Positions 9,801-60,150 of a DNA stretch of 64,000 nt are shown piece by piece. The stretch lies in the NCBI GenBank assembly GCA_013115135.1, contig JABANP010000017.1, positions 124,001 through 188,000 on the forward strand. Direction: 5' to 3'. Within the stretch, counting starts at the first letter, position 1. Each line of letters starts with the position of its first letter. Both the position numbers and the translations under genes were made by a program. This stretch comes from Perkinsus olseni (Eukaryota > Perkinsozoa > Perkinsida > Perkinsidae). The notes below the pieces were generated by a model. That model was not told the origin of the DNA and did not search any database. It worked only from the letters and a program-made list of their open reading frames with translations.

Positions 9801-10092
9801 CTCTGGAATCCTTGCGAGTTGCGTTTATAGTGGAACTTGTTTGATCGCAACAGCATCCATCCACGTGTATTAGTTTAAACGCCAGTTTTACCCCGTCACC
9901 AGCTAGGAAATCAACGAGGAGCTTCGTGTTGCGTTATTCAATCAACCTGAGCCAGAACTAGCGGCAGTTCCATCTGTCATCAAGCATTCCTTTCCAGCTC
10001 CGTGCACACGGACAACCAACAGAGTGAATATCCTCTGCCATGGCACAGGGAAGGTCAGAGACGGATTTGTGTACCAACCTGTGCTAGAGTAG
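6883..10092 (+). CDS. Long coiled-coil protein, nine exons
   Basis: Model: 6883-6941, 7034-7142, 7388-7441, 7487-7542, 7783-7849, 8133-9369, 9410-9528, 9653-9718, 9907-10092, totalling 650 residues with consistent phases. From about residue 60 it is heptad-rich (VEEHRKKMEDVERKLEEEK, then long E/R/L stretches over the large exon), broken by a Ser/Pro-rich linker (SQSPPPMGITEG). The tail is globular (RVNILCHGTGKVRDGFVYQP). I do not recognise the family; a centrosomal, basal-body or golgin-like scaffold is possible. The donor at 9719 (GTGTCT) is the weakest join. The stop at 10090-10092 lies only 13 nt before the first in-frame GTG of the retrotransposon gag. Start ATG 6883 is the first in phase. 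Confidence 0.65.
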
Positions 10093-10105
10093 ATTTGGAA
10101 AGCAC

Positions 10106-11053
10106 GTGTGCTTGGAGGTACAGTTCGAGCCGGAGTCGTTACCTCACCTTGCTCGTCCCCAATTAGCTACTAGTCATGCTCCGTTGCTTGATCAGCTACA
10201 AGGATTGTTGGAAGCGTTCACTGCGTTGCTGGTTTTAGTAGTGAGAACCGCCAGGAAGAATGAAGCTCTTCGGCCACTCATCTCCCTTGGAATCAGTTCG
10301 GGTGCATTGGAAGGGGATGATGAGGCAAGAGGTCTATCCATTCTACCCCTGTATCTGGATAAGACTACCTATGCTATTTATAGAGAACTCCCGGCTACAT
10401 CCACGGCCACGTTATCAGAAGCTTTGACAGCTCTGGGTAAACAATTGAGACCCAGAACTGCGACCACTTGGTTGTCCTTCACCCACCAGAAGATGCATAG
10501 TCAGGAGCACCCGATGGACTTTGCAACGAGGTTACGTCATATGGCAGCTGACTTGATGCCTGGTCTCACAGTGAAGGAGCGCGACGAGCTTTGTACTCAC
10601 CAGTTCCTTGCCGGTATTCCGACAGAGTACGCTAGAGTTTTGTGTACGGATCCTACAAAGCTCAAGCTTTTTGAAGCAGCTCAACGTGTGCAGCAACTAC
10701 TCGGGTTAGATGAAGCACGATTGAGGAGCGATTCGGCTCCAGATGCCTCAGAATTACTGGGACTTGATGATCAAGAAGCGATTCCAAATGACAAGGGTCT
10801 TATGGATAATGATTTATCTACTTTGGTTACGGATCCAATGAGTTCAAGGGCAACTGTTTCTATGATTGGGAAGTCAAACTATCGTGGTAATAGTTTAATC
10901 ACTTGTCATCGTTGTGGACGTCTTGGTCATGTTGCGAAAGACTGTAGGATGCCAAGGACGATTGTGTGTCATCGATGTGGACAACGAGGTCATGTTCAGC
11001 GAGCCTGTCGAGCTACTGTTAAGCAGGGAAACGCCCAGGGGAAGACCGATTAG
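10106..11053 (+). CDS. gag: Retrotransposon Gag (5'-incomplete)
   Basis: 315 residues from a GTG; there is no in-frame ATG near the start, and the frame opens only at 10088, so the natural N-terminus is likely lost. The middle (FTHQKMHSQEHPMDFATRLR...LAGIPTEYARVL) resembles Ty3/Gypsy Gag capsid domains. Two zinc knuckles end it: CHRCGRLGHVAKDC and CHRCGQRGHVQRAC, each C-x2-C-x4-H-x4-C, which bind RNA. It stops at TAG 11051-11053, downstream of a slippery heptamer that would send a fraction of ribosomes into pol. Confidence 0.85.
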   Translation: MCLEVQFEPESLPHLARPQLATSHAPLLDQLQGLLEAFTALLVLVVRTARKNEALRPLISLGISSGALEGDDEARGLSILPLYLDKTTYAIYRELPATSTATLSEALTALGKQLRPRTATTWLSFTHQKMHSQEHPMDFATRLRHMAADLMPGLTVKERDELCTHQFLAGIPTEYARVLCTDPTKLKLFEAAQRVQQLLGLDEARLRSDSAPDASELLGLDDQEAIPNDKGLMDNDLSTLVTDPMSSRATVSMIGKSNYRGNSLITCHRCGRLGHVAKDCRMPRTIVCHRCGQRGHVQRACRATVKQGNAQGKTD

Positions 11054-14000
11054 GTCGAGCGGTAACTTCCCAGAACACTTTTCCATCATTATCAGTAGAT
11101 GGAAGTTCGACTACTATCCCTTGTATATATGTTCAAATTCTGGATGAACCCACCAAGGTCATGGTGGACTCTGGCTCGACGGTATCTTTACTACGTTATG
11201 GTGTTTTTGATAACGATATCCTACAACGTCACAAGGCCTGTGGGGTAAATTCGGTGCATTTAATGGCAGCAAACGGTCAACCATTGGAGGTTACGACTTG
11301 TGTACAACTACCGGTGCAGTTCTCGACTTTGACTAAGATAGTGAGGTTCTATGTGGTGAAAGACTTGTCAGTCCCAGGGATTCTTGGCCAGGACTTTCTA
11401 CGACAAACAGGTGCCGTGGTTGACTTTGCCAACGATGTCTTGAAGGTTGGCAATACAGAAATCTACTTGGTACCAGGTCATACCCAAATAGATGTATCTG
11501 AGGCTACTACCGGTATAGATCAGGTATCACGACCGAGTCAACCAATTTATGAAGATCGTCAGATCACGGTATGTCGGGCATCTTCGGGAAGGTTCGTGGT
11601 ATCGTGGCATTGGTCGTCTACACCTCCTACCAACTCGAAGGGCTTAGAACCATTCCTAACACGTTTAGACCAAGAACATCAACGACGGTTCCACGAACAA
11701 GTTGACTATTATGTAAAAGAGAAGATCATCGAGGAAGTTAGTCCTGACCAATTGCAAGCTTATGGTAAAGAATGTTTTTACTTGAAATGGTTCGCAGTTG
11801 TACAGAAGTCTACTTCTACCCCAGCACGGCCCATATGGGATTTTCGACCTATTAATGAAGCAGTCTATCATGGTCCGATGCGTCAACAACTTTTGGGCTA
11901 TATTCAACAACAGCTACGGTTAGGATCGACTCTGATAGCCTTTGATATAACCAAAGCCTTTTTGGCGATAGACTTATCGCCCGACCTTGGTAGATTTACC
12001 CTCTTTAAGTACCAATCGAGGACCTTCAAGCATCGGCGACTGGGGTTCGGAGTTTGCATAGCTCCGCACGGGCTAGAGATTTGCCTACGCCTACTATTCC
12101 AAGAACATGACCTGCATCGACGGCTTTATGAAGGCGGATGGTTGTTGGTGCAATATATGGATGATCTATTTTTGGTGGCGATGACCGATCATCCTACGAT
12201 GTCTCCGTCACAAGCGGCTAACTTGGTTATCAAGGTTTTGGCGATGGCATGCTTTACGGTTCAAACGAAGAAGACCCGTTACTTATGCTCTCTCCCAGAT
12301 CCGTCCTCCGTCATCACCATTGATTCGGGTGAAGTGATATCTCCTGTCGAAGAAGCGGTCCTCGTAGGCGTCACTTATAATAAGTCTATGGCTGAGGTTT
12401 GTTATGATAAAGAAGACTTGAGCATTGCATCGACTGGCTCTGATGCTCTGACGCTTCGACGGGTCTTGGCGGTTATATCTAAATTGCGTGATCCTTTGTT
12501 GCTCCGACCACTGACTTCCGTCGTTAACAATAATTTGAAGCGGATTATTGGTTCTTCTCCTCTTGGTTGGGATGACTCTGTTTCATCAGATGATTCTAAC
12601 CTATGGTTATCTAGGATCCAAAGGCTCGAAGAATTGAATAAGGTTGAGCCTTCTTATGCACTTGGGCTAGTACACTCTGGTGGTACTCTTTTGATATATG
12701 TTGATGCTTCTACAACAGGTTATGCGTGGTTGGCGTATTATGGTGGCGACAATGAGACCCTCTCCTACTTGGGAGGGGAGTATGGGTTATGGCCTGCTAA
12801 GCATCAAGGTAAGCATATAAATTACCTTGAGCTTCTAGCATCGGTCAAAGCTTGTAATTATGCCGATCAGCATTACATCAAGACCTTCAAGCCTAGTTGT
12901 ATTTATCATGTGGTAGACTCACAAGCCTGTTTCCGTCAACTGGTTTCCGGCCGTGCTCATCAGACTGCTCACAGCGCGGCACTCTGTCAGCGTCAACTGA
13001 GCTATCATGCCGAGCTCACGGGTGATCCTACTTGGAAGCATTACAATGTGGTACTGGTCCCGACTTCTATCAACGTAGCAGACCGAGGCACTCGACTTCA
13101 ACCTGTTTTAGACTATGTCCTATGCAATAGCGATGACTTAAATCCCGTGCATCTTCAAGAGTTTCTACCTCCTCGTGCTGTCGATCGCTCTATCTTAGAT
13201 GACCTCAAGAGTCGACTTAATCCTGCTACAGTCTCAACAACATCGTCTACAGAAAGGACTACTTCTGTATCACTGGTATGTGCGGTTAGGGGGTTTTCTA
13301 CAACGCACAGTAATTGGTTTGCTATATCGGACTTACGACGAGAGCAGCAGCAAGATCAAGTATGTCAAGCTATCAGAGATGGGTTACAGATCGCTGATAT
13401 AAAACCGTTTTTGTTGTCATCCTGTGATCCGGATGAAGTACGCTTGCTATGGAAATATCGAGCATCGTTGGATGTTCAGGATGGTTTGTTGGTACGTCGT
13501 TATGCTCCATTTCCTTATTATGGTGTGCTCAATATCCCTATTATCCCTGCCAGACTTCGGCAGCAGTTATTAATTCGGGTACATGAACGTGGACATTACG
13601 GTTCATCGAAGCTCTATGATCAACTGACCAGAATTAGTTTTTGGCCTACAATGAGGAGTGACTGTCTACAGTTTGTCAAGGCCTGTCCTATATGTTCTCT
13701 ACGACAAGGTCCTCCCCGTCCGGTACCTTTACGTTTGCATTATGCGACTCGTCCATGGCAGTTGGTATCAGTTGATGTATTGACGATTCAACGTCATAAG
13801 CTCCTAACATTATGCTGTCATTTCTCGAAATGGGCTTTCGTGATACCACTTCGAGATGAAACAGTCTCGTCTACGGTGACGGGATTGCTTAAGGTTTTCA
13901 ACCTCTTTGGACCACCAGACTGCCTTTTGGCTGACCGAGGGGTCAATTTTACACATCCTGCCTATGTTAAGGCTATGACTGATTTGGGGATTATGTTGCG

Positions 14001-14763
14001 ATATTCTTCGGTGGCCCATCCGGCTTCTAATGGCCAGGTGGAACGATTTCATCGAAGTTTACTGGACCGTATTCGATCTTATATTCTGGCGGTTCCTGGC
14101 GGAGATTGGTTCCGACATTTATCACAGTTGGTGTATCAATATAATACTGTTCGTCAGGATTCTATTGGTATTTCACCTTACGAAGCTATGTTTGGTCGCC
14201 CACCACACCAAGACTACATTCCATTTTTGGAAGGGGGTGATGGGCAGTCTCATCACGATGAAGTCCATGCGACCATCATCGATTATATTAATACCCAATT
14301 AGACCAAGCAAAAGCAGCCTATCGACGACAATATGACTTAAAGACTGATACGACTTATGACTTCCCCATTGGCTCCAACGTCCTTATCTATTTTGATACT
14401 GTCCGATCAAAAGTCCAGCCTCATTGGAAACGCGGTTTCCAAGTCTTATCCCGACTAAGTTTGACTAACTACCGTCTGCAGTCACTTGCCTCTGGACATA
14501 TATTTACCTGTCATGTGAATCGACTACGACTAGACCCTGCTCCTTCTGGTCCCAAGGAGTCTGTCCCGACAAGACCTATACGCTTACTATCTACACCGAC
14601 AAGTCCGGCTGCCAGGAGTTCGGATTGGTATCCTACTTTAGAAGAAGAAGAAGTTCTACCTACCGACCAAGCTCCTGATCGCCATCCAGTCAGAGACGCT
14701 CTCCACCGTGTATCCCGTTACGGGCGAATTATCCGTAAACCAGCAAGATATGGATATGATTGA
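11023..14763 (+). CDS. pol: Retrotransposon Pol: protease, RT, RNase H, integrase
   Basis: Open in the -1 frame from 11023; the first ATG is 11161, but the frame runs unbroken from the overlap with gag, so expression as a Gag-Pol fusion is likely. Protease: VDSGSTVSLL. RT: FDITKAFLAIDL (motif A), RLGFGVCIAPHG (B), VQYMDDLFLV (C, YMDD). RNase H: IYVDASTTGYAW and NYLELLASVKAC. Integrase: HERGHYGSS...CPICSLRQ zinc finger, then a DDE core with SVDVLT, LLADRGVNF and NGQVERFHRS. The C-terminal tail has a GPY/F-like basic module. About 1,246 codons without a stop, so this copy looks competent apart from its missing 5' end. Confidence 0.93.
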   Translation, partial: AGKRPGEDRLGRAVTSQNTFPSLSVDGSSTTIPCIYVQILDEPTKVMVDSGSTVSLLRYGVFDNDILQRHKACGVNSVHLMAANGQPLEVTTCVQLPVQFSTLTKIVRFYVVKDLSVPGILGQDFLRQTGAVVDFANDVLKVGNTEIYLVPGHTQIDVSEATTGIDQVSRPSQPIYEDRQITVCRASSGRFVVSWHWSSTPPTNSKGLEPFLTRLDQEHQRRFHEQVDYYVKEKIIEEVSPDQLQAYGKECFYLKWFAVVQKSTSTPARPIWDFRPINEAVYHGPMRQQLLGYIQQQLRLGSTLIAFDITKAFLAIDLSPDLGRFTLFKYQSRTFKHRRLGFGVCIAPHGLEICLRLLFQEHDLHRRLYEGGWLLVQYMDDLFLVAMTDHPTMSPSQAANLVIKVLAMACFTVQTKKTRYLCSLPDPSSVITIDSGEVISPVEEAVLVGVTYNKSMAEVCYDKEDLSIASTGSDALTLRRVLAVISKLRDPLLLRPLTSVVNNNLKRIIGSSPLGWDDSVSSDDSNLWLSRIQRLEELNKVEPSYALGLVHSGGTLLIYVDASTTGYAWLAYYGGDNETLSYLGGEYGLWPAKHQGKHINYLELLASVKACNYADQHYIKTFKPSCIYHVVDSQACFRQLVSGRAHQTAHSAALCQRQLSYHAELTGDPTWKHYNVVLVPTSINVADRGTRLQPVLDYVLCNSDDLNPVHLQEFLPPRAVDRSILDDLKSRLNPATVSTTSSTERTTSVSLVCAVRGFSTTHSNWFAISDLRREQQQDQVCQAIRDGLQIADIKPFLLSSCDPDEVRLLWKYRASLDVQDGLLVRRYAPFPYYGVLNIPIIPARLRQQLLIRVHERGHYGSSKLYDQLTRISFWPTMRSDCLQFVKACPICSLRQGPPRPVPLRLHYATRPWQLVSVDVLTIQRHKLLTLCCHFSKWAFVIPLRDETVSSTVTGLLKVFNLFGPPDCLLADRGVNFTHPAYVKAMTDLGIMLRYSSVAHPASNGQVERFHRSLLDRIRSYILAVPGGDWFRHLSQLVYQYNTVRQDSIGISPYEAMFGRPPHQDYIPFLEGGDGQSHHDEVHATIIDYINTQLDQAKAAYRRQYDLKTDTTYDFPIGSNVLIYFDTVRSKVQPHWKRGFQVLSRLSLTNYRLQSLASGHIFTCHVNRLRLDPAPSGPKESVPTRPIRLLSTPTSPAARSSDWYPTLEEEEVLPTDQAPDRHPVRDALHRVSRYGRIIRKPARYGYD
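11026..11071 (+). promoter_or_regulatory. -1 ribosomal frameshift signal between gag and pol
   Basis: GGGAAAC at 11026-11032 is read in the gag frame as G-GGA-AAC, the canonical X-XXY-YYZ heptamer. It lies in the 31-nt overlap between the pol-frame stop (11020-11022) and the gag stop (11051-11053). After a 6-nt spacer, GGGAAG (11039-11044) can pair with CTTCCC (11066-11071), with GACC/GGTC possible inside: a stem-loop at the standard distance. Slipping by -1 reads GGG AAA and enters the long pol frame. Confidence 0.85.
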
Positions 14764-15535: not shown

Positions 15536-17109
15536 TCAGTCCTCGCAAGCGATGTCACTCGAGAATGAGGCGAACTGAGATTCGCTGGGCTGAAAAATGA
15601 CGAAAAGACTTTCATTCGATGACGCTTTGGTATTGCCTACCGCCGTGTCGATGCTCTCGATGTGCCTCGAACGCTTGCCCGTGTACGGGTTGACCGAGAC
15701 AGAGATAATCTCGTCGTCCGAGGAGGCCTCAGATTCATCAGCAGTAGGGTTGAAGCACTCGGGCAGAACGGTGGGGAGGAGAGTGACGTTATCGATCACG
15801 TAATCGACGCCCGGGAACGGACCTAGGACACGAGAAATGAATGAACACCTGGGCGTGTGTGTGAGTTCAACTAAGTCGTTCTGCCGACGCTGTTTGCGGA
15901 TTCTGCCGGAAGTTCTCAGATGTGTCCTACTCTCTTCTCTGAACGATCACCGGTTCGATAAATCCGGAGAAAAAATCTGAGTCTGAGTGGTTCGGCGTTG
16001 GACTCGAAACCCACCACACCAAGGCGACATAGAAAACAAAATCGACGTCGGAACCGACCTTGCAACGCGCCATCGGGGTTGACCAGAACTGTGCGCCATC
16101 CAACTTGCTTAGCCGCCTCGAGGTTCGCTGGCGAGTCGTCTACCAAAATGCAAGCGGATGGGTCGCTAACCCCGGCGATGTTCATGGCGATGCCTGAAAA
16201 CCTGGTCCGAAAAACAGCTGAGGCAAACGCTGGGCTTACGGTAGCACGGAGACTTCCTTTTCGTCTCGAAGTTGCACATCGCCGTGTCGATGACGTTCGG
16301 GGAGGAGGTCTCGAATGCCCAGAAAAGTTAGACAACGCAAACAGTGCTGCATCGGCCCGACGGTTAAAACCCACGTGGGGACACCTGAACGACACCACAC
16401 AGTGAGCGGAGTCGAGAGATCACCTTGGCGAGCGACTGCTAGGGTAGGCCTTATCGAGTTGGGGGATGTGTGGTATAAGAGAATGTGAGTGGATGATGAC
16501 CATCCTATCGAATAACTAGTTATTGAAAACCGAGAAAATGCCTTGACGCCTGACTGTTAGGTTGAGCGTTACTTTTGACTGCTTAAAAGACAAATTGGGG
16601 GATGTGTGGTATACAACAAGAGTGAATGATGATCATATAAATGAGCGATAGTCAGGTATCTGTATCTAGCTCAATCACTAAGCAGGAACATACGGGTGAT
16701 GTCTACCTAGACGGCAGATCATTTGTCTGACCGCCGAGTCGGGAGGAACGAGGTCTCGGAGCTCGCTGAGGGCATGGGTTTCGTCGAAGTATCGAGCAAT
16801 CTGACGTCGGATAAAATGAGCGGAGCGAAGCTCATACTCGATTTACTTCTGCATCGTCATCCTTCGCGATGTAGCCCTCTTCAATAAGACCCTTGACGCA
16901 GGTGCCGTACTTGGAGTAGAGAGAGTAACCCGCTGATGAATCCAGACCAAAACTGAAGCAGGGCAGCCGAAAGGTCCCGGGTTCGAGTCCCGGTAAGTGC
17001 ATCCTACTTCTGGTGAATATATTTTCCTATGTTCTGCGTTAACAAACGACCCACTTCTCGCCTGTCCTTCCAGTAGAGGGTGTCGTCGCAATCCAGGAAG
17101 AGCACCGGC
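15536..17109 (-). CDS. HAD-family phosphatase (pyrimidine 5'-nucleotidase/SDT1-like), six exons seen
   Basis: Exons in coding order: 17109-17008, 16952-16847, 16800-16707, 16384-16240, 16193-16059, 15822-15536; the first exon with the ATG is not identified. Motif I is VLFLDCDDTLYW (D-x-D-x-T, nucleophile Asp). The cap region reads YSKYGTCVKGLIEEGY and YFDETHALSELRDLVP. Motif II lies around WVLTVGPMQHCLRCL. Motif III has the basic KRKSPCY. Motif IV is ILVDDSPANLEAAKQVGW. This order fits the yeast SDT1 / plant 5'-nucleotidase branch, soluble enzymes that hydrolyse nucleoside monophosphates. An acidic tail of about 80 residues is extra. The GGGG run at 16298-16301 (CCCC in the gene) shifts the frame by one base inside a conserved stretch, probably a consensus error. 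Its first visible intron is an antisense tRNA-like sequence. Confidence 0.8.
16458..16640. repeat. Imperfect direct repeat inside a HAD-gene intron
   Basis: GGGGGATGTGTGGTATA occurs at about 16460 and again at about 16599. After a few differing bases, each is followed by GAGTG(G/A)ATGATGA(C/T)CAT. The copies are about 139 nt apart in the 322-nt intron 16385-16706. Confidence 0.6.
16953..17007 (-). other. 55-nt intron made of an antisense tRNA 3' half
   Basis: Intron of the HAD gene: donor GTAGGATG at 17007, acceptor TGCTTCAG ending at 16953; the phases of the flanking exons match (Asn codon AA|T). Read on the plus strand, 16971-17001 is AAGGTCCCGGGTTCGAGTCC and onward: a T-arm with all five stem pairs (CCGGG/CCCGG), a perfect B-box (GGTTCGAGTCC) and a seven-base acceptor-like strand. 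No 5' tRNA half is present nearby. It cannot be a functional tRNA; it looks like tRNA-derived DNA that became an intron. Confidence 0.7.
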
Positions 17110-18217
17110 CTGGCAACAATAACAAATATCAACTCCAACAGCGAACATGAACATACCACAACGCAGCAATATCATAAAAATATGATGGAAAAAGAAGTCT
17201 TAAATAGACTGCTGCTGCCTCTCGTCAATCACAGGAGAGCTCCCAGGATTGAATTTAACGTGTAAAAGACGACCCTTGAGAGCGTTCCTCGATGAACTCA
17301 AAAGAAGCCGTCTATTGAACACCCAGGGGGATCAAACAGGCAAGCACATATTCCTAACCCTCAACGATCTACATAATACAGGTCGCCGGGTTGTTTACTC
17401 TGACGAGCTTGAGGAGAGGTCTGCTGAGGAACACTCGCCGCAAATTGCGGCCCGCAATTTCCAGGAGAAACAGCGACAGATGACAAACACAATTTGAAGA
17501 TCGTCGTGGCCTCACCCTCCGCTGGTGTCCTCCGATAGACGACGACTCTTGCGAGATGGGGAAGTCGAGAAGGAAGGAGTTCTCATGCACAAGCAGTAAA
17601 TACAGAATTCTGATGAACATTCGTAACAACTCGACCGAGATCAGGAACGTCCTAGTCGTAGGAGCACCATCGATAGTAGGACCAGTCACCGACTAACGAC
17701 CACGATGACCCAGGAGGAGCCGATACATGAAAAGGGACAACTACGAGAATAGCTAACTCGTAAAGATCGATCAACTTCATATGTGTACGCATGCACATTG
17801 GCGCGGTGAACTCTGAACGGCTCTGCTAGCAACTTGCTCGTCTCCTCCGACTCGCACCAAGCTAAGAGAACGTTACCTCAATTTGAACATGTCAAGAACC
17901 AGAAGGAGAAAACGTTCTTTGAACTTTAGGTGGAAATTGCGTAAGCCACCCTCAACCAGCCCTGGCATGCCTCACTCCCGTCAAACGTTTACCGAAAAGA
18001 AGATTGATAACAACAAAACAGGGAGAAGTTGGGCAGGGCAAATCTCTTCGAGATGAACCCTCAGAAGGCGTGCCGATGATGATGATGCTGGTCGGCGACT
18101 AGTAATCATCATCATCGTCCTCGGCGACATGTTGCCATTTTTGCTGCATGAAAAATACAAGTGTACTCAATTACTGCTTAACATCGACTGAAATATCGTG
18201 CATGAACGTGGTAGCCT
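17110..18217. other. Intergenic; 5' exon of the HAD gene expected here
   Basis: The HAD gene needs an upstream ATG exon, which I could not place. Open frames at 17249-17497 (plus) and 17369-17689 (minus) have no recognisable motif or splice context. No repeat or RNA gene was recognised. Confidence 0.3.
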
Positions 18218-21200
18218 TTACATGTAAATGCGCTGACGTGCCTGCGAAAAAACTGCGTTGAGAAATAGCAAGATTGCAAGATTCTCACTTGAATGGGGTG
18301 CCGACAGGTAGGACAGTACTTCAGACGCGAAGAACAATCCGCGCAGAGGACATGACCTGGAGGAACCAGAACTCGGGTCGTCGGTGGTCGCGGGTTCGAT
18401 CCCCGGTGCCGTCATTTCCTTACCACAGGGAGAGAGCGACGTATTCCACATGTTCTCGAAGCAAACGATACATAAGGGATCGTTCAAGCCTGAGAATGGA
18501 AAAATGAATGAAAAAACTTCGCTCCGCTAGAAATCTCACCTTGACGAAGGCCAAGGCCGCTGCTACTGGTGTCAGCATCATTACTACGCTGCTGCTGCAA
18601 CTGACGCATGGCCAGCGCCAAATGAACCTACGATTCGAGGAACGTGTGGTATGAGAATAGATCGCGAATGCTTCATAACCACGATTGAGCTCCTCTCGAC
18701 ACTATCACAAACCGAATGCCCTCCTTTCGAAAGCAGAGGTTGTTCAACCCCTCATGAAAACAGGTTGTGGTCACGAAAGTAGCATAAAATTTCACACATA
18801 AGACGACGAATTTCCCGAAAGCCTCACAATCAACTGCATCGCAGAAGAAGAATAGCCGTAGCCTAGCCGACCTTCCTCGTAGCCTTGACAATAGTCGAGC
18901 AGACTCCCTCGAGCTCTTCCGAGGTCAGACCCTGCATGTCGTACTCGCCCATCAGTAGGCTCTTCGATCGCCTTGCCGCAAGCAACGACTGAGGAGAAGC
19001 ATGGATGACTAACTTCAGCGACGAACTCGTCACACTATGACAATCTCTTGCAGTCTTACGTAATCCGCGAGGCCTGCATCAGAGGACCTTACTAAGGAGT
19101 AATCGCAGGAGGAGAACGACCCGACACTTGCTAGAAATTCTTTCCTTCGGAGAATACCACCACGCCGCCTCCTTCCGTATCCTAGCTCGCACTCTGACGA
19201 TTATGAGTTTCCAAAAACTGCAGCGACTCCTGCTAGTTGAATCATTCCAGTGTCGTGAACACCGTGAACAGGACGAACGATTTTCCCGGACGCCCGCGCA
19301 CATCAACTAACTGCGTATTTTTTACCTCGGAGATCGACAAGTACTCCTCCTTCTGGGCATCATAATCCTTCACATAACGGTTACAGTCAGCCTGGTAGCA
19401 TAAATTTCAGCGATGACCTCCACGGCATACACCAAAGTGAAGCAAAGATACTCATGATTACCCTCAGTTGCTCCAGTCGGGCCCAAGATTCCTTCAGGCA
19501 CTCGCTAGACACCACCGCCTTCTCGCGAATCTCTGAACCGTTTCGAATTTGCACGCACGCGCAAGAAGATACGCTTGCCACCTACTGGTGATCTCCTCGA
19601 TGAGAGCGTCGCATGTCTCTACCGTCTTGTCCGCCAAGTCCACCGCGTTGTATCTACCTCGCCAGGGCGTCACCCGTCAACCGCCACCACGGCCGCGCTT
19701 CAACGCACGCGATTAGTGTTGTATTTTTCATTGGGAAAAGATCACAAGTCGATGAGAACCGAAGCGGCGATGGAAAAGGAGACAGACAGGTGTAAGTTCC
19801 GATCGGGCGAGCGAGAAGGTTCGGGGCGTGGCGAGATATTTCGTGGCGCGTGACGCTGTCTCCTGCAATCTTACACTTTCGTCGCGCTCTCTTCCTCCGT
19901 CGCAGCCCCATCAATGCTCCCATCATCTATCAAAAGGACATTCGGCATGTAGGAAATTCTCGCGCGCCACGAAATTCAGAAAACGCTCACCCGACTGCGA
20001 CACCATCCTGTCCACTTTCTGCATATCTTTGTCCACGGTCTGCGACGATCCGACCTGTCCTGAGCCTTCCAAGGCAGCCTGATAGCGAGTGAACGATCAA
20101 CGGGAGGATTGCTGTAATGCTCGGAGGGTGAAGTACACTTTTCTTCTTCCCACAGGAGACGATCTGTCAGTATGGAATCCACGGTCGAAGCGCGCGCTCC
20201 ACTAATGGATGATGATCCGAATCATCATCAGGCGTATAAATGTACGGCTTAGGCGTACGTACATTGCAAGCAAATTCTTCCCTTATGGCGTATGGCTCGA
20301 GGCCAGAAAGTCTAATTTTGACTGTGTAATGGGTGAATAATTCAGCCATAACACAGTCAAAACTTCCCTTAATTCACCGTGAATTGGGCGTATAAAACCT
20401 GATTAACTCTTCTCCGGGGCGTTAACTTCTGAAAGCCTGGATTGATCCCTGGACGATCGACGAAGGGGACGGATCCGAAGTTCAATTTTGTAGTACAAAG
20501 GACGCATCGAAAGTTATGCTATCCAAAAACGCTGGCAGAAAAATGGGTGAATTTCTCCGCCCCCACGATTTTACCTGTCTAACAGTCGCCTTCGACAACG
20601 CAGTAGCTAGCCTATCCGCGATGGCCTCAACCTCTTCCGGCGGTACTCCCTCTAGCTCCTCTCCTCGGTATCTTAATCATAAGTACATCCTCCGATCTCA
20701 TACCACTCCATCCCCACCTCTTCAACTCCTGCTGCAGCCGACTCAACTCGCTCTTACCGTGCAGAGTGCGCTGGCGACGGCGGATAAGCCGACACTCAAG
20801 GCTTTCAAACCTGACATCAAAACACGGCCCATCATATCAACACCTCCGATAGTGCACGCCCAGAGAAACCTATACGAATGCTCACAAGACACAGATTTTC
20901 AAACTTCTCGCCAATGGTCACCACAGGAGTACGGAGTCATTCTGAGTAGAGAGGATCCCTGCGTCTCTACCAAGGCCCACTGAACCACTTCAGCACCCAA
21001 CGGACCGTAATCGATCGGACGATCGATTTCGCAGTCGATCTCGAAGGTGCCTGCCACCCCTTCTCACCGTTTAACTTCCTCTATCACGGCTTCATGCGTA
21101 AGCTCGCACTTTTCCGTGTGAGAGGCGACCGCACTGCGAAGATCGCTGAGCGGAAAGATACGCCCCAGGCGTCGGGTTTGGTGTGGTACTCGAAAAGCTG

Positions 21201-23770: not shown

Positions 23771-23998
23771 ACATCACGTACTCGAAAACAGAGTGATGAT
23801 ATTAATAGGGAGAGCAAGATCGTGGGTTCGATCCCGGCATGATGCATTTAATACTGCCATAAAATTGCTCTCACGACCTCTCTACGCACACCACGTACTT
23901 GAAAACTGATACTAGCGGGAGAGCAAGGTCGTGGGTTCGATCCCGGCATGATGCATTTAATACTGCCATGAACTTGCTCCTACTACCTCTCTACACAG
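23771..23998. repeat. Tandem duplication carrying two tRNA-like T-arms
   Basis: Two copies of about 110-120 bp (about 23771-23889 and 23890-23998). Each holds CGTGGGTTCGATCCCGGCAT (B-box) followed by GATGCATTTAATACTGCCAT, then a stretch like the 3' end of the RING gene at 23957. On the minus strand each may act as an intron after the CPLCRE codons (GTAGTA...AGTATCAG), but that is not proven. Confidence 0.6.
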
Positions 23999-31631: not shown

Positions 31632-31914
31632 TTGGTATCCGAAGGTGAAACGGTGGAAACTGCACTGCGAAGATTCCTCCTGCGAGAACAGCGAAGGAAG
31701 CCTGATGCGCGAGCTGCTTCTTCCGATTCACTGGAAGTGTTCAATAAACCAATTCTGAAACCCGGAGACGATTCTGGAACCACAATTTAGATGTAGAAAT
31801 CAATTCCAGAATCGATTCTCCAAATCAATTCAAGCGTAACTTTCTTCCGACTCTCTCACGTCTACCTAGAGGACGTGTGAACGACGAAGTCGGAATACAA
31901 TTAAAAGTCGAAAG

Positions 31915-31977
31915 AAATGCCCCGCCTGGAATTCGATCCGGCAGCCTCACAAAATCTTGCTCTCTTGCAGCTCCTCA
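31915..31977 (-). other. tRNA-like fragment upstream of the 32.0-kb gene
   Basis: Plus strand reads TGCCCCGCCTGGAATTCGAT..., then TTGCTCTCTTGCAG, a good 3' splice site, about 65 nt before the ATG at 32040. Antisense, it has a degenerate B-box (GGATCGAATTCC). It could be a 5'-UTR intron of the same kind as those at 16953 and 18357, but no donor is certain. Confidence 0.3.
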
Positions 31978-40106: not shown

Positions 40107-41277
40107 ATGTTTCACTTCCTCTCGACAGAGGGCCTTTTTGTGTACTTGTTAATGCTGCCCAACTCGGCGCCATCAGCCTTCTTGGTGCCAACTACTACCA
40201 CAACAACCGTCCAAGCCCATGGTCTGTTAGGTGAGCCTTCTCTCTTCCTCCGAGGTCCAGCGGCGGCCGCAGCCTCCCTTCGCTTCAGGCTGGATCTCTT
40301 TTATTGTTCTCTTGTTAATCGGCGTTGGTGTGCTGTACTGGCATAACAAGAGTGACCGCAAAGCGCGGAAGAGCTCTCGGCTGGGGAGCCACTCGACGCC
40401 CCGTCGACCGACCAGGGTACTGAACCTTGACCGAGATCGAGGGAAGGGTTGCCTGATGCCTGGCTGCTTCAGGTCAGCGTCAGTCGTAGTCTCAGACGAG
40501 AAGTGGAGAGGGAGTCCCAATGCGTAGGTGTCGGGGCTCTCACTGTTGCTCACGAGCGTGCTGGTTATTGCCGCAGTTGTAGCATAAAATTGAGCAAACA
40601 ATTAGAAAGCAATCAATCAAAATCTGCTCGTTGAACTCTCAGTGGAACTATTTCCGCCTCGTCTCTGCAGCGATCGGGAGGCCGCCGTTGCCGCCAGTGA
40701 TGGTGTCTGGGGACACCTGGTCCGGTCTGCCCTCTGGTAGGAGGCCCTGGACCTATTCTGAGAGGAAGAGGAGTACGCTATCGGCGGAGAGGGTGAGCTG
40801 ACTCGGCTTTGGTTTCGCACGATTAAGGTGATGCCTATGGTGCAGGTGGCTGAGGTTACTGACGCTCTACTGGAAAATCGGCTAGGTAGTAGGAGGGAAG
40901 GGTTTCTAGACGGAAATGTGGTCTGGCAGAGGAATCCATGTTTCGTATGGAGATGGTCGGCGGTTCGATTCCTGACTTTCCTTTTTGTAGGTTCTGACTA
41001 TTCTTCCACCGCTTCCAACTGGGACAGTCAAAGTGGTGAGTTCATCCCTCGACCTTCTCGTCGGCCTGTTCAACACCCACCCCCGCCGATCTCGCGACAC
41101 TCGTGGGCCCCTAAACGGTGCGCTGCTCTCAGACGCTTCATGGAAGGCAGTGGCTGGGGACAAGCCCGAAGCGGTAGTACGGGCCACCAGTACGCCCGTC
41201 GTGCTAGGTTCGTTGCGTCTCTCCAGGTTGTGAAGCGGGCCGGCAGCGATGCCTCCACTGCCGTTGGGAGGTAGGCG
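40107..41277 (+). CDS. Putative type I membrane protein, multi-exon
   Basis: Exon 1 (ATG 40107 to 40230) encodes a hydrophobic MFHFLSTEGLFVYLLML leader and a Thr run. Exon 2 starts at 40289 after TTCGCTTCAG and encodes WISFIVLLLIGVGVLYW, then a basic tail (KSDRKARKSSR); phase 1 joins a Gly codon. A donor after GCLMPGCFR (about 40472) is likely. A later exon begins after TTTTTGTAG at 40990 (SDYSSTASNWDSQS), and the frame runs to about 41277 with Arg/Pro-rich sequence. Joins beyond exon 2 are uncertain. Same plan (leader, one helix, small tail) as the 32.0-kb gene, but no visible sequence likeness. Confidence 0.4.
40912..40981 (+). other. tRNA-like sequence ending at a 3' splice site
   Basis: 70 nt. 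GGAAA and TTTCC ends can pair; TGGTCTGGCAGAGG resembles an A-box; TCCAT/ATGGA forms a five-pair anticodon stem with loop GTTTCGT (T33, triplet TTC); GGTTCGATTCC is a perfect B-box. The T-stem and lower acceptor stem do not pair well, so it is probably a decayed or derived tRNA. The TTTTT that follows (40982-40987) would be both a Pol III stop and the pyrimidine tract of the 3' splice site TTTTTGTAG. Confidence 0.4.
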
Positions 41278-41716: not shown

Positions 41717-41954
41717 ATGGCCGTTGCTTCTGAAGGAGGGAATTTTCCGGTCTTCGAGGCTTCCGGAAAGGAGGGGGAGTGCGCTGAGCCTGTTGGAGCT
41801 CACTGGTTGCCGGCGTTGGCGCATGGCGGAGCTACGGGAGGTGGACTCATTACCAAATGTGCGTCCACCAGGGATCGAACCGGGGTCATTCGGATGCACT
41901 CTGCCTTCCGGTGATCTAGCCGCTCGTGTGACTGTCTGGGGCGTTTCCTCTTAG
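41717..41954 (+). CDS. Possible small gene with a tRNA-like intron
   Basis: ATG 41717 opens MAVASEGGNFPVFEASGKEG... to 41858. If 41859-41919 (GTGCGTCC...GATCTAG, 61 nt) is an intron, exon 2 (41920-41954) ends SARVTVWGVSS, total 58 residues. The candidate intron contains an antisense T-arm (B-box as GGGATCGAACC). No homology recognised, so this rests only on frame, splice signals and likeness to the 16953 and 18357 introns. Confidence 0.25.
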
Positions 41955-54962: not shown

Positions 54963-57900
54963 TTAAGAAGACTCAATGGAAGAGCTGCGATCCACCACGG
55001 GATGATACTGTGGGAATCCCTCAGCCTTGGAAGCATCGTACAGCTTATTGTACTGGGGGTGGAAGGGCGACAGCGCTACAGCGACAAAATCAACCGGGAC
55101 TGTATCCGTCGGAACAATGGCCACCGGTATCTGATGGAGAATCTTCTGCTCATCGTGAAGCACCGCACGACCTACCGCTGAGAAAAGCCTGACTGTCACT
55201 TTGCGCCCACGACGCTCATCATTGGGATGCTCCCACTCGTAAACTGCCTGGCCGGTCCTGTAGGAAACTGACGCAGGCTTGGTTAATAAACTCAGCTCCT
55301 CCGTCATGTGAGGACTTTGCTGCCCCTTGTAGAAAGGCAAAGTTACATTGTAGAATCTGAGGGGCTGATGGAGGCTGCTGTGCATGCGCTCGACTTACAC
55401 TTGACATTCCTTGACGAATTTGGGAATATACACAGACAGGCTATTCTCCTTGATAGCAACAACAGTGCCAGTAGTGTAGTGAAGACTGTCTCTCGTGCGG
55501 AGATAAATACAGAAGAAAGTGATATCAAACTTCGTCTGAGCTTCACGACTCGACTTCTTCATCTCTGAGAGCCGTCATAGAGCGAAGACAGAACCACCAC
55601 GCAGTCTTACTGTTGCACTCCTCGCATTGTGCTTCGTGCTCCTGGGCCGTCATCTTCAGATTCCTCTTCTCGTTTGGTTGCAACTACACACGAATGATGA
55701 TGTAAGATTCTTAGAGTCGGACAGCGGATGCACGGGCCGGCACAAACGGCTTCGAATGATCTGCCTACTAGGATCTGCAGTTGACGATGTACCATAACAT
55801 CAGCATAACGTCGAATGGGAGAGGTGAAGTGAGTATAAAGTGGGAAGGCGAGGGCATAGTGAGACACGCTTCGACCATCTGACCCTTGTACACCGTATCT
55901 GCACGACAGCCATGTTCCGAGCATTCGGCGATCGATTTGAGTAGTTGCTGCTACTTGAGCGCAATGTGTAATGCTAACTTACTCCGCAGGTCGCATGGTC
56001 TTCATAACCATGTTCTCTATTGAGAGGCCTGCCTCAGGCGTGAGCTCCTTCTTGACGTTAGTCAGCGCCTTGAAAACCAGACCGCTATCCCCACCATCAC
56101 CAGCGCACCACACGGTCTTGGGTATACCTAAATCGAGCAGCATAAACAGAAACATCCGCAGGAAGGGATTTTGGTGTTACGCAAGTCTTCGAGCAGCAAC
56201 TTGGTGATCTTCTCGAAACCTTCCTTGATCGGTCTGTCGTGGTGTCGCAGCACCGCAATCTCTCTCATCTTCTCATCCTTATTGTTGGCAATGGCAGTAG
56301 CAACACAACGGTTGGCAGCCAGCATCAACTGTAGAAAAGATAGGGCTGAGCCGAGAATCGAACCCGGGACCTCGCGCACCCGAAGCGCGAATCATACCAC
56401 TAGACCACACAGCCACAATGCACAACCATCATCGCCCCAGGCCCCTCTCCCTCTTCACCTCTTCAATGAGCCAGTGACTCGGCGTGTGCGACTCCAAGCC
56501 GTACCCGATAGGCAGGTTGGTCTCTGGACCCATCTTAAACAAAAGCTTGTGCTTATCGATCTTCACCGAGCCGTCCGCAAAGCGATTCACTCGGACCTGG
56601 CACCAAGCACCAATCAACAACCATCAAACAGTTGACCAACTACTTTCTTGCAGACCGCGTAGAGCAGATGGAGATCACTCTCCACATCCTCCCAAGTATG
56701 GCCGTCGGTTACGGGCGGCCTGAGGGAGACACACTTCGAGCCTGGCCACCACCCGTCGCAATCACCTACTGTTGGGCCAGAGGTTTCCCATCAAGAACGT
56801 CCTGAACTTCATCGTAGTTGAATCGGCAGCACGATTTGATAGCAGATTTATAGAACTTCGGACCAGAGGCGCAAGTGAACTGAATGCACATGCGTAGAGA
56901 TCATACCAAAAATTTTCGCAAATCATGTACGTTATTGTCGTCATCGATGCCAATTATCCTTCCGGTATCAACATTGATTCGGAATGTAGCCGTGAAGGTG
57001 AGTTTATGCTCAGCCGGGTTCAGACTGCACAGCTTCGCACACAGCCCTTCCGGCAGCATCGGGAACATCTAAAAAGAATACACGGAAACTTCGCTTCGCT
57101 GCTATCGTGTGGAGGCCACTAGTGACCGATACTGAAGCCAGCGGTGAGATCATGGCCAGCGCACACCGCTGGCTTCCACAGACCGCACACAGTTGATTTG
57201 GGGGCGCGCGCGAATTCCAGGGATAGCGTCAGATACTCTTCGACGTACCCTGTGGCAAAGATAGACAGATGTACACCTCTTCTGAGCCTCCTGATCCACC
57301 GCTGACCCTGAGACGAACAAGTCAATCCGAGCTATTGTGAATCTTGCACGCTTCAACCTCAGATATTACCTTGCTTCACATAGTGAGCGACATCAGCGAT
57401 ATGAACCCCGATTTCAACCGTATTCTCGTCTACCACGTCAATGCTGACAGCATCATCCTGCAAGAGATACTCCCTCCAACCTCAAGCCAGCGTATCATAC
57501 CAGATCTCGAGCTGTCGCGGGGTCCACAGTAAAGATACGCTTCTTCGTGAGATCCCGTCTAGAACCCCCAGGCCGCATCTCTCTTCTGTACTCAGCCTCA
57601 GCATTGGCCACCATCCGGTCCACCTGATCATCACCCGATTCTTTCACGCTTCGCCACGAATCGGCCGAATCCCAACATACTAGGGTAAGATACAAAGGTC
57701 CGTCAGGAACGAAGTCAGAAATCTCCAAAAATGGTCATCAGAAACGAACACGTATGAGACGTTCCAGACTTCATCTCAATGTGAATACTCATTCCTACCG
57801 TAAGCTAGGGAAAAAGGGCCGTCCTCAGTACAGCTGTTATTTAGGAGTCCAGGCGAGTGTACAGAAAGAGCCCGGCGGGGTGCGATGAAGTTCTATCGCC

Positions 57901-60150
57901 GCAATGACGCTACTCTTTCCGAGCTCTACACAAAGGACACATTTCGAGAAAAGCTGTGGCGATATGAACCAAGCATGGTTGAGCGTAACGAAGTCGTCGG
58001 ACCATGATCATGAAAAGCAACAACTATTGCAATGCTCTAGCGATCGTATTCTTGTTCTAAGCCAGCCGAAGCCACTTCGCGGGGCTCTTCCTTGATATCA
58101 GTGCGATGAGAAATCTCCCAATACCGCGTACTACCTCGTCGTAGACTTGTCGGCTGAAGTCTGCAGCGTGGTGCTCGAGATTAGCCTCCTCAAGACAAGC
58201 CGCCGTCTCCGCGGCCAAGTCCCCAGCACTCCCGAAAGGCTTCCCAGCCAACCTGATACACTCGCATACTCATACCACACCTTTCCCAACTACTACCTCC
58301 CCAATGGCAACACCGAGTTGGTTCCCCATTTGAGCATCTGCACCGGGATCATCACTCGACCGTTCAGTGGGCCCGGCAGGCGCAGGACACGAGAGACAAC
58401 ATCATTAATCTACGATGAACACGCTCTTTCTTGTCTGTGATCCGGTAGACGAGTGGTATGAGACCCACCTGAATGAGCATCCAAGGCAATCTCTTATTCA
58501 TTGGCTTAGCTCGAATGAACTTGTCTCCCGGCTGCACCATGGAGGTGAGGGGATCGGCATCTGAAGCGCAGACCTCAGAAGCGATCCATTCAAGGCGGCG
58601 TCCAGATGCGAATGCCCTAGACAAGATACGCCTCATAGTGAAACGGTTACGATACCCAGAATATCTTAGCTCGATCCTAGGTAAGAACGAGAGAGGAAGA
58701 TTCACTCACACCATCTTCGCGCGATCACGAAGGCAACCGTTCGCCAAAACAAGTACACGTCTATGCGGCAACACGGCATCTTCCACTGTGTGACGGGCAT
58801 TTGCCGAAGAAGACTCCCGAGCTCCCCATGCGGATAGCTCAACCCCCTGTTATTATTACCAATAGCTCCATCCAGAGGATCTCCACCTCCTCCTGTCTTG
58901 TTAGCTTCTAACGTGCATACAAACCTATCATCACATCCCTCATTAACATGACAACAACAGCAGCAGCGTGTCCTCCTACGGATGCTTAGTCCAGCACTTC
59001 TTCGACACGTACACCACTACCGCCGTCCGGAAGCACTCGGTCGCTCTTTCTTTCGTGTCGTCATCAGACTCCTCCGAGCTCTCATGCATAACGGCGTCTT
59101 CGTCACGGCCCTCACACTTCGCCAAACGTCTGAGTCGCGCGCCACGAAATTACTGATCGGTTGGAGGATATCAAGTGCTCTCCATTAGAGAATAAACACC
59201 GTCAACCATGCGGTACCAACACGAAGAAGGATATTAACAACTGCCGGGATCGAACCCGGGACCTCGAAACCTACTTGATATCGGCTCTAGTGGGCACGAG
59301 ATCGTCCTCGTCACTGGATGAGGATGATGTACTGGAGCTACGCCCTCGAGCGTTGCCCTTCTTATTCTTATTAAAATCCTTGAATTCGGGTGCGATACGG
59401 ATCTGCATACCGCTCGCCTTCGATACCTGTTCAACGCGAGCTCAGGGAGTCAAAATCCGAAGTAGCTTCGGTGCATTTTCTCACTATGAACATAACTTTT
59501 TGGGGACAAGTTTATGCTACCACACCAACCACAACTCACTGGTACAAATACCGACAATTGGAGCGAACAGAGGGACGAGCATAGCGAATCGCCGACGAAA
59601 AGCAAACTGCGTAGGGTGATTTCGATGATATTCTCGCAGTGACTGATCGTCGAATGGTTTTGGGATAGCATTAACAATGATAAAGGGACCCAATTCGCCT
59701 TACCCATTGCTCCGGAGGGTTCAAACGCACCACCACTTCGTCTCCATGTATGGCTCTGTTGCGGTCGAATTTCCCTTTTATGAGAATGTCTACATTACTC
59801 TTACTGAGAAGGACATCACTCAGGAGTTATTCACAATTCGCCTTCGGCCTCCCAAAGCTTCCAATGAGCCCAGACGCTGTAGAAAACCCCCGCCGGGAAT
59901 GCCGTGCCCTTTCTACTCATCCACGTCTCTGGTTCGATCCGGTCTGACTCGTACAAATGCGTCGTTCGGGGTCTGTTGAACTACCTGATACGAGACGCGT
60001 TACTCGAACCCGATACCTCCCGGTGGTCAAACATGATCCTTGACCACCAGCCCACTTCCCCGTACTACTTGAAGAAGGCCCGAAATCAAGGACCCGTCTG
60101 CTAGACCTGCTTCAGCTTCCTCCCTGGTGATATACTCCGGGTACGGTAGA
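54963..60150 (-). CDS. DIS3L2: DIS3L2-like 3'-5' exoribonuclease (RNase II/R family), many exons
   Basis: Resolved exons upward from the stop at 54963: last exon, 55564-55399, 55683-55611, 55898-55769, 56328-55983, 56596-56459, 56719-56644, 56879-56770, 57068-56931, 57307-57249, 57457-57370, one ending 57501, and further ones to about 60150. RNB domain: [12 protein letters not shown] joined by a 44-nt intron to [27 protein letters not shown], then [25 protein letters not shown] and [20 protein letters not shown]. Upstream: [30 protein letters not shown] (cold-shock part), [13 protein letters not shown] and [14 protein letters not shown]. The [12 protein letters not shown] form and no visible PIN domain point to DIS3L2 rather than DIS3. 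It would degrade RNA 3' to 5', in DIS3L2 preferring uridylated ends. One C is missing at 56165-56167. The N-terminal ATG is uncertain (60580 possible). Confidence 0.82.
56343..56414 (-). tRNA. tRNA-Pro(CGG), nested in an intron of the DIS3L2-like gene
   Basis: 72 nt, same strand as the host gene. Acceptor GGCTGTG / CTCAGCC (one T-T mismatch), D-arm GGTCTAGTGGTATGAT (A-box), anticodon stem CGCGC/GCGCG with loop TTCGGGT giving anticodon CGG, and T-arm CCGGG-TTCGATT-CTCGG (B-box). Discriminator C. It lies in the 130-nt intron 56329-56458; 14 nt separate its end from the next exon, and the TTTT there (Pol III stop) is also the pyrimidine tract of the 3' splice site TCTTTTCTACAG. Confidence 0.9.
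59239..59268 (-). other. tRNA-like T-arm near a DIS3L2 exon end
   Basis: Minus strand: GAGGTCCCGGGTTCGATCCC then GGCAGTT. It follows the likely donor AA|GTAGGTTTCG after the exon ending TRADIK, so it lies in the intron, in sense. B-box good, T-stem only partly paired, no 5' half. Confidence 0.4.

Follow-up and report, generated by a model that had tools for sequence, protein, structure and literature searches.

Short introns of Perkinsus olseni that carry a dispersed element resembling the 3′ end of tRNA genes

Introns of the HAD-like and RING genes

The unicellular Perkinsus parasitizes clams and oysters, and the origin of new introns is a long-standing question. A 64-kb stretch of the Perkinsus olseni genome (assembly GCA_013115135.1, contig JABANP010000017.1, positions 124,001 to 188,000; this whole stretch is referred to as the window, and positions below are its own coordinates) contains two genes on the reverse strand, encoding a HAD-like protein and a RING protein, that are each interrupted by a short intron resembling, in reverse complement, the end of a tRNA gene. 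Intron 1 (16953..17007, − strand, 55 nt) lies in the HAD-like gene between a coding stretch with a DCDDT motif (17008..17117, − strand, whose upper limit is the start of the reading and not a proven exon end) and a downstream exon (16847..16952, − strand), both delimited by homologs and translation. Intron 2 (18357..18423, − strand, 67 nt) lies in the RING gene between exons encoding CIVC...SPCG (18424..18489, − strand) and HVLCADC...CPTC (18289..18356, − strand), which were placed by Pfam and translation. The introns themselves were delimited from the sequence and the spliced reading, together with homologs (HAD) or Pfam (RING).

Both introns must be removed, as the original prediction held for these same coordinates. 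Without splicing, translation of the HAD gene ends directly at the start of intron 1 (HQK-stop), and the RING frame stays open but continues in the wrong frame past the 67-nt intron 2. With 16953-17007 removed, the HAD-like gene reads KYIHQ-N-FGLDSSAGYSLYSKYG. The spliced piece matches the P. olseni protein FOZ61_005884 at 83% over 98% of the query, which held one misframed exon, and across the join the two are identical from PVLF to DETHAL. The join is also matched, with changes, by a transcript-derived MMETSP protein; a P. marinus protein matches the HAD piece and stops short of covering the join. With 18357-18423 removed, the RING gene reads CIVC..SPCG-HVLCADC..CPTC, which restores the PCGH that intron 2 had been said to split, and Pfam assigns the spliced product to zf-C3HC4_3 (1.9e-11). 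Near 16300 (− strand), the frame of a HAD exon differs from that of the P. olseni protein, reflecting either an assembly error or a real lesion. Translated unspliced, the window introns yield the peptides TGTRTRDL, GLEPGTF, and PGIEPATT, which we take to be typical of translated tRNA-derived short interspersed elements (SINEs) in predicted proteomes.

Motif and profile searches placed the element of intron 1 at 16969..17006 (+ strand), where it comprises, in the tRNA sense, the variable loop, T arm, acceptor strand, and trailer, with an exact B box at 16980-16990, and the element of intron 2 at 18382..18419 (+ strand), with an exact B box at 18393-18403. Both introns are mostly the reverse complement, as proposed, of a tRNA T arm and acceptor strand, plus that of the trailer, with the exact B box GGTTCGANNCC on the strand opposite the gene; five of the five T-stem pairs in intron 1 and four of the five in intron 2 can be read from the sequence. 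The description of the introns as tRNA 3′ halves is too strong, as what they hold of a tRNA gene is only its final ~38 bp, beginning near position 42 and ending within the trailer. No Rfam match was found at either window intron. Four other introns in the two genes are free of the element and measure 46, 46, 50, and 47 nt: two in the HAD-like gene, placed by homologs and translation (16801..16846 and 16194..16239, − strand), and two in the RING gene, which are translation-based models without a homolog (18490..18539 and 18242..18288, − strand). A dispersed repeat of ~180 bp lies between the HAD and RING genes (17654-17835) and has 39 other scored matches at 74 to 87% identity, some of them partial; it was rejected as the source of the element because no profile hit falls inside the repeat in the window.

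A dispersed ~38-bp element and its association with short introns

In the genome searched (61.5 Mb in 968 contigs), the pattern GGTTCGANNCC+N10+ATTT had 727 matches, compared to 4 for the backwards pattern, and GGTTCGANTCC followed by an A ten bases on had 1014, compared to 52 backwards; some real tRNA genes, as well as tandem copies, are counted in both totals. Within the window, GGTTCGANNCC was present at 7 exact places among 28 matches with at most one mismatch, a total of 28 being reached in 3 of 100 shuffles. With a profile derived from elements that lie elsewhere in the genome, eight sites of at least 20 bits were identified, including a real tRNA-Pro gene; reversing the window left none, and 10 Markov shuffles gave 0.0 on average. 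These motif and profile counts, together with the excess of 727 genome matches over 4, led us to reject chance T-arm matches. Ordinary tRNA genes were also rejected, since ARAGORN predicted tRNAs at only 5 of the 103 distinct exact B-box places in the fetched loci and the window. A first-look tRNA scan of the genome, in which 63 out of 7,618 candidates were scored, was also made. Some contigs carry clusters of tRNA genes that are nearly identical to one another, among them tRNA-Ile(TAT) on C778 and tRNA-Arg(TCT) on C823 and C607.

The remaining 98 elements align to AAAAATGCCGNNNSYGGRNTCGAACCCGGGACCTTYC (antisense), and the information is confined to approximately −16 to +21, delimiting a sharp-edged unit of ~38 bp; because the search pattern itself dictated the B-box columns and, in most rows, A73, the information there is inflated. 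The same window-independent profile gave eight window sites of at least 18 bits (one being the true tRNA-Pro) and, after removal of duplicates and window overlaps, 16 hits in 77,631 bp of off-centre flanks. A larger flank set of 95,166 bp, which included in-window loci and duplicated regions, held 21 elements, compared to 0.00 in shuffles. These densities suggest a family of ~7,700 copies from the window alone to 12,700 from the flanks alone, where the flank-based number may be too high because the flanks adjoin known elements. Among 24 profile hits from the window and flanks, the B box had no mismatch in 13, one in 10, and two in 1, a count in which the profile cut favors good B boxes. Introns of the kind seen in the two window genes thus recur elsewhere in the genome, within a large family of elements, and the observation is both real and larger in extent than first stated.

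The association with introns was analyzed with an intron caller that required the frame on each flank to stay open for at least 25 codons and compared elements with displaced control positions. The caller set of 138 elements was reduced to 130 by removing 8 real or near-real tRNA places and to 117 by removing 13 duplicates or close neighbors; 456 control positions were placed around all 138. At a score above 25, introns were modeled in the sense orientation of the tRNA for 26/117 elements, compared to 12/456 controls (p 3.3e-11). At a score above 20, the totals were 37/117 for sense and 18/117 for antisense models, compared to 34/456 controls (p 1.4e-10 and 0.0089, respectively). The sense signal is therefore strong and the antisense signal modest. 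The antisense orientation, seen in both window introns and first taken as typical, is the less frequent one, with sense models outnumbering antisense models by 26 to 4 and by 37 to 18 at the two cutoffs. An earlier caller, since replaced, had modeled introns on the motif strand for 15 and on the opposite strand for 21 of 92 elements, compared to 25 of 220 controls. Applied to the whole window, the current caller returned four models only, with no usable length distribution.

Without a length filter, the 26 sense models had a median of 56 nt (range 43 to 149), with 14 no longer than 57 nt, and the 18 antisense models a median of 63 nt (range 43 to 156); modeled introns of ~43 to 70 nt hold many of the copies. 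Many element-bearing models are thus similarly short to the element-free introns of the two window genes, and P. marinus introns (PMC3101222) span 39 to 1622 bp and are mainly below 100. The 14 sense models of at most 57 nt leave less than 20 nt outside the element, while the others are longer and their limits vary. In the shortest models hardly any sequence is left besides the element, an argument for the element itself constituting the intron there.

Candidate splice sites cluster at the edges of the unit. In 92 contexts read in the tRNA sense, GTRAG peaked just upstream, where the two bins covering −30 to −10 had 13 occurrences compared to ~1.6 per bin elsewhere, and CTYAC peaked just downstream, where the three bins covering +20 to +50 had 16 compared to ~1.4 per bin elsewhere. 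GTAGGT was joined to the element in 65 rows, compared to 44 in which TAGGT follows A, C, or T; 14 and 13 tRNA-Ile-core rows, respectively, had been removed. The rows are not independent, one core recurring 10 times, and as distinct cores the counts are 34 and 32, where one in four is expected (p 5.7e-6).

The evidence for splicing is homology, at seven joins. Three are in the sense orientation, where Pfam domains extend across the join: L050 (HATPase_c), L125 (a protein kinase, presumably CK2-alpha), and L047 (eIF4E). Four are antisense, comprising L092 (eIF3c, domain eIF-3c_N), L103 (UCH), the window RING gene, and, through its homologs, the HAD-like gene. The Pfam set consisted of 19 of the 45 models, partly picked as recognizable, plus the window RING gene, and the ratio of orientations in it is accordingly meaningless.

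The elements also form at least one subfamily. A 25-letter pattern of the GGCANNNTGCATTT type was found at 146 places with at most two mismatches, compared to none backwards; the listed loci have ~34 nt in common, nothing further except evident duplicates, and unrelated flanks. A neighbor within 2 of the 12 variable letters was present for 34 of 92 places, compared to a mean of 12.3 and a maximum of 24 in 500 column shuffles. These 92 came from 100 listed places, of which 5 in a tandem array and 3 second copies were dropped and a few real tRNAs were kept. Sequence shared at unrelated intron positions (~25 to 34 letters) was found for the subfamily only, not every member of which is proven intronic. 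The near-identical subfamily cores point to copying.

Origin of the element-bearing introns

With moderate confidence, we favor the reading that the two window introns belong to a tRNA-derived, introner-like dispersed family, copies of which are spliced as minimal introns when they land in exons. It builds on the genome-wide family, the sharp ~38-bp unit, the enrichment of short-intron models, the joins in both orientations, and the subfamily structure described above. The source would be the 3′ third of a tRNA gene with its T-rich trailer, and insertion into an exon would be the intron-making event, the copy being removed as a ready-made minimal intron. A sense intron would then consist of a donor GT, (A)GGTC, the B box, the acceptor strand, CATTTTT, and YAG, a layout of which L125 is a clear case. 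The donor would lie just ahead of, or overlap, the AGGTC of the variable loop, the T-run of the RNA polymerase III (Pol III) terminator would serve as the pyrimidine tract, and a nearby AG would provide the 3′ splice site. In an antisense intron, GACCTTYC, the complement of GRAAGGTC, would act as the pyrimidine tract ahead of the AG, as in intron 1. The near-palindromic, TTCGAA-like core of the B box may, as a guess, hold the branch site on either strand, and spread might similarly be guessed to occur through a reverse-transcribed Pol III transcript inserted with no target-site duplication. The fuller proposal, that a self-spreading tRNA-tail family with a B box and a Pol III terminator made thousands of minimal introns in this perkinsid, in both orientations, with no target-site duplication and probably via RNA, is a tentative extension that we consider possible rather than probable.

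Several results weigh against an introner-like family of tRNA origin, and the first concern the relation to tRNA. Partners in the T stem vary independently: for pair 49-65 in the 98 elements (antisense letters), CG, GG, CC, and GC were present 32, 20, 20, and 9 times, compared to expectations of 29.2, 19.6, 17.4, and 11.7. Once real tRNAs are taken out, 130 elements remain; their three free pairs match at a frequency no higher than in shuffles, and a complete set of five pairs is present in 12. The independence also holds in the 117 elements left after duplicate removal. In control tRNAs of the same genome, 31 to 33 of 34 readable stems matched at each pair, with G-U mostly not counted; these 34 came from a set of 67 predictions that is rich in tRNA-Arg copies of nearly identical sequence. 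Copies taken from a variety of functional tRNAs would be expected to retain matching partners. Because the partners do not covary, most elements have not been copied recently from functional tRNAs, the idea of kept tRNA halves fails, and a kept RNA hairpin was likewise rejected. An upstream A box of at least 6 bits was found for 11 of 92 elements, compared to 2, 3, and 3 in controls, and among these 11 is L061, apparently a real tRNA. Without an A box, most copies cannot at present be complete Pol III genes.

Other unfavorable results concern introns and insertion. Antisense models scoring above 25 were present for 4/117 elements, which does not exceed the 12/456 of the controls (p 0.42), nor does the 5/130 obtained before duplicate removal (p 0.32). 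Of the 20 sequences compared to Pfam, 13 had no hit and L066 had weak coiled-coil hits only, so that most models depend on a caller with soft coding scores. Codon bias is weak. The G before TAGGT could be partly inherited from the tRNA sequence. Even within the subfamily, only ~34 nt are shared, as read from the sequence listing. A target-site duplication was not found in the 36 models analyzed, where the border run was 2.39 compared to 2.22 (sd 0.13); these were sense models of at most 100 nt and antisense models of at most 70 nt, limits that excluded 5/31 and 13/23 models, respectively. An empty site in a close paralog was not found for three other genes, and the HAD/RING region had no second copy among 40 scored matches. 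Distant kinases and one distant UCH gene (31 to 51% identity) read through the join, which fits either gain or loss. That tRNA-derived DNA has been made into new introns is an inference, since the traces of insertion looked for, a target-site duplication and an empty site in a close paralog, were not seen. Our confidence is not higher because the antisense signal is modest and the length argument applies to part of the models.

The main rival is that the element may be a protein-binding DNA site, likely an extended TFIIIC B box of the extra-TFIIIC (ETC) type with a chromatin role, located in any non-coding DNA that is unconstrained, introns included; it would fill short introns because it is nearly their length. 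We consider this unlikely, if less so than the alternatives that follow. The independently varying columns resemble those of a binding site, and the sharp ~38-bp limits and the presence of both orientations would also fit. According to PMC6950938, ETC sites are dispersed B boxes without a Pol III gene, as the Perkinsus elements are to judge by sequence, and are also found in introns; in yeast and humans, as in Perkinsus, the B box mostly lacks an A box, and in C. elegans the sites are overrepresented in introns, though with both boxes. However, the C. elegans figure in that text, 504 sites, is far below the thousands in Perkinsus, where most copies have the B box only within a motif that extends from variable loop to trailer and forms introns. 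An ETC role would also leave unexplained the sense bias, the existence of a near-identical subfamily, the position of the T-run directly ahead of the splice acceptor, and the many element introns that are barely longer than element-free ones.

tRNA-derived SINEs combine a tRNA-like region, in which the A and B boxes of Pol III lie, with a body and tail and target-site duplications, and they are dispersed in both orientations. The Perkinsus elements share the tRNA-like B-box region, the dispersal, and the two orientations, but they are only ~38 bp long, mostly without an A box, and neither a SINE-like shared body or tail nor target-site duplications were found around them. They could descend from an old SINE-like repeat put into pre-existing introns and intergenic DNA, the introns later shrinking by deletions. 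A longer tRNA-like stretch upstream in a few longer intron models (L003, L125, L133, and L136) and lengths above 70 nt in 9/26 sense and 8/18 antisense models are consistent with such a history. It is rendered improbable by the 14/26 sense models of at most 57 nt, which leave less than 20 nt for an older intron, and by a B box far better kept than its neighbors, even in hits not picked by an exact B box (13, 10, and 1 of 24 with zero, one, and two mismatches).

Less probable still is that the element represents a splicing signal of this lineage, a module of branch site and pyrimidine tract with a chance likeness to a B box, spread by selection or reverse splicing. Such a signal would account for the sense bias, the adjacent donors, the T-run ahead of the AG, and a core that is alike on both strands, but the four further introns read in the HAD-like and RING genes lack it, antisense introns exist, and the motif exceeds the needs of splicing, for instance in the acceptor-strand end and A73. 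Expressed structured RNAs, such as split, permuted, or intronic tRNA halves, are very improbable: the sequence is tRNA-like and a real tRNA-Pro may itself be intronic, but the T stem is not kept and neither window intron matches Rfam, and split or permuted tRNAs were rejected on the missing T stem and a search by eye for 5′ halves near the two introns.

Other features of the window and relation to known systems

Five further elements were detected in the window. Two on the + strand, at 23814..23851 (subfamily GGCANNNTGCATTT) and 23923..23960, were recovered by motif, profile, and subfamily searches; they form a tandem pair (23814-23960) of one subfamily with a duplication period of ~109 bp. 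On the − strand, elements at 41855..41892 and 59230..59267 were identified by motif and profile searches, and one with an altered B box at 31913..31950, followed on the + strand by a pyrimidine tract and AG, was identified by the profile. An exact B box at 40962..40972 (+ strand) has a weak surround and scores 17.1 bits, under the cut of 18. The sole complete tRNA gene found in the window by tRNA and Rfam searches is a tRNA-Pro(CGG) at 56343..56414 (− strand), which sits in the same orientation within a high-scoring 130-nt intron model (56329-56458, − strand) and may itself be intronic. Open frames of a retroelement of the long terminal repeat type extend over 10088-14763 (+ strand), a zinc-knuckle frame being followed by a long frame with matches to reverse transcriptase, integrase, and a Pao-type peptidase; a match to aspartyl protease was below threshold.

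A SINE-like insertion in the rice catalase gene reportedly turned into an intron, the same course as proposed here, but as a single case rather than a genome-wide family. The closest general counterpart is the introner. In a survey (PMC9860276), introners resemble the Perkinsus elements in that many introns of a genome share sequence and the hosts are aquatic; the introners are short elements that constitute the introns, as the Perkinsus elements may, with family medians of 30 to 654 nt. Most of those families are consistent with DNA transposition, whereas the Perkinsus elements have no target-site duplication. The terms tRNA, SINE, and Perkins do not occur in the main text of the survey. Introner elements of Amoebophrya (PMC7789003) show a comparable mass intronic spread in a fellow alveolate but use non-canonical splice sites and have inverted repeats as well as direct repeats that span the exon borders, while the Perkinsus models are GT-AG and have no direct repeats. 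Dada DNA transposons of P. marinus (PMC3706591) likewise tie mobile DNA to tRNA genes, many of them, in the same genus. They were rejected as the source of the element: full-length elements are 4,666 to 10,979 bp long, compared to the ~38-bp unit here, and for three of the five P. marinus families the proposed duplication is TAGCTC in the A box, not in the T arm.

The original prediction that no family of this kind had been described agrees with the accessible introner literature, subscription papers aside, which names no tRNA-derived family. In literature outside subscription journals, no introner paper with a tRNA B box was found. The accessible records for Perkinsus with introners gave the Amoebophrya paper (PMC7789003) only, those for tRNA-derived SINEs with spliceosomal intron gain concerned humans and mice only, and wider searches of the same material returned nothing closer than the Dada paper (PMC3706591). 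A 2023 dinoflagellate introner paper is cited in PMC11453091.

These observations point to an undescribed source of new introns, in a host lineage close to the introner-bearing dinoflagellates. If the favored reading is true, parts of tRNA genes would constitute a separate, recurrent route to intron gain, and such families, with their very short units, could escape searches that depend on long stretches of sequence shared between introns.

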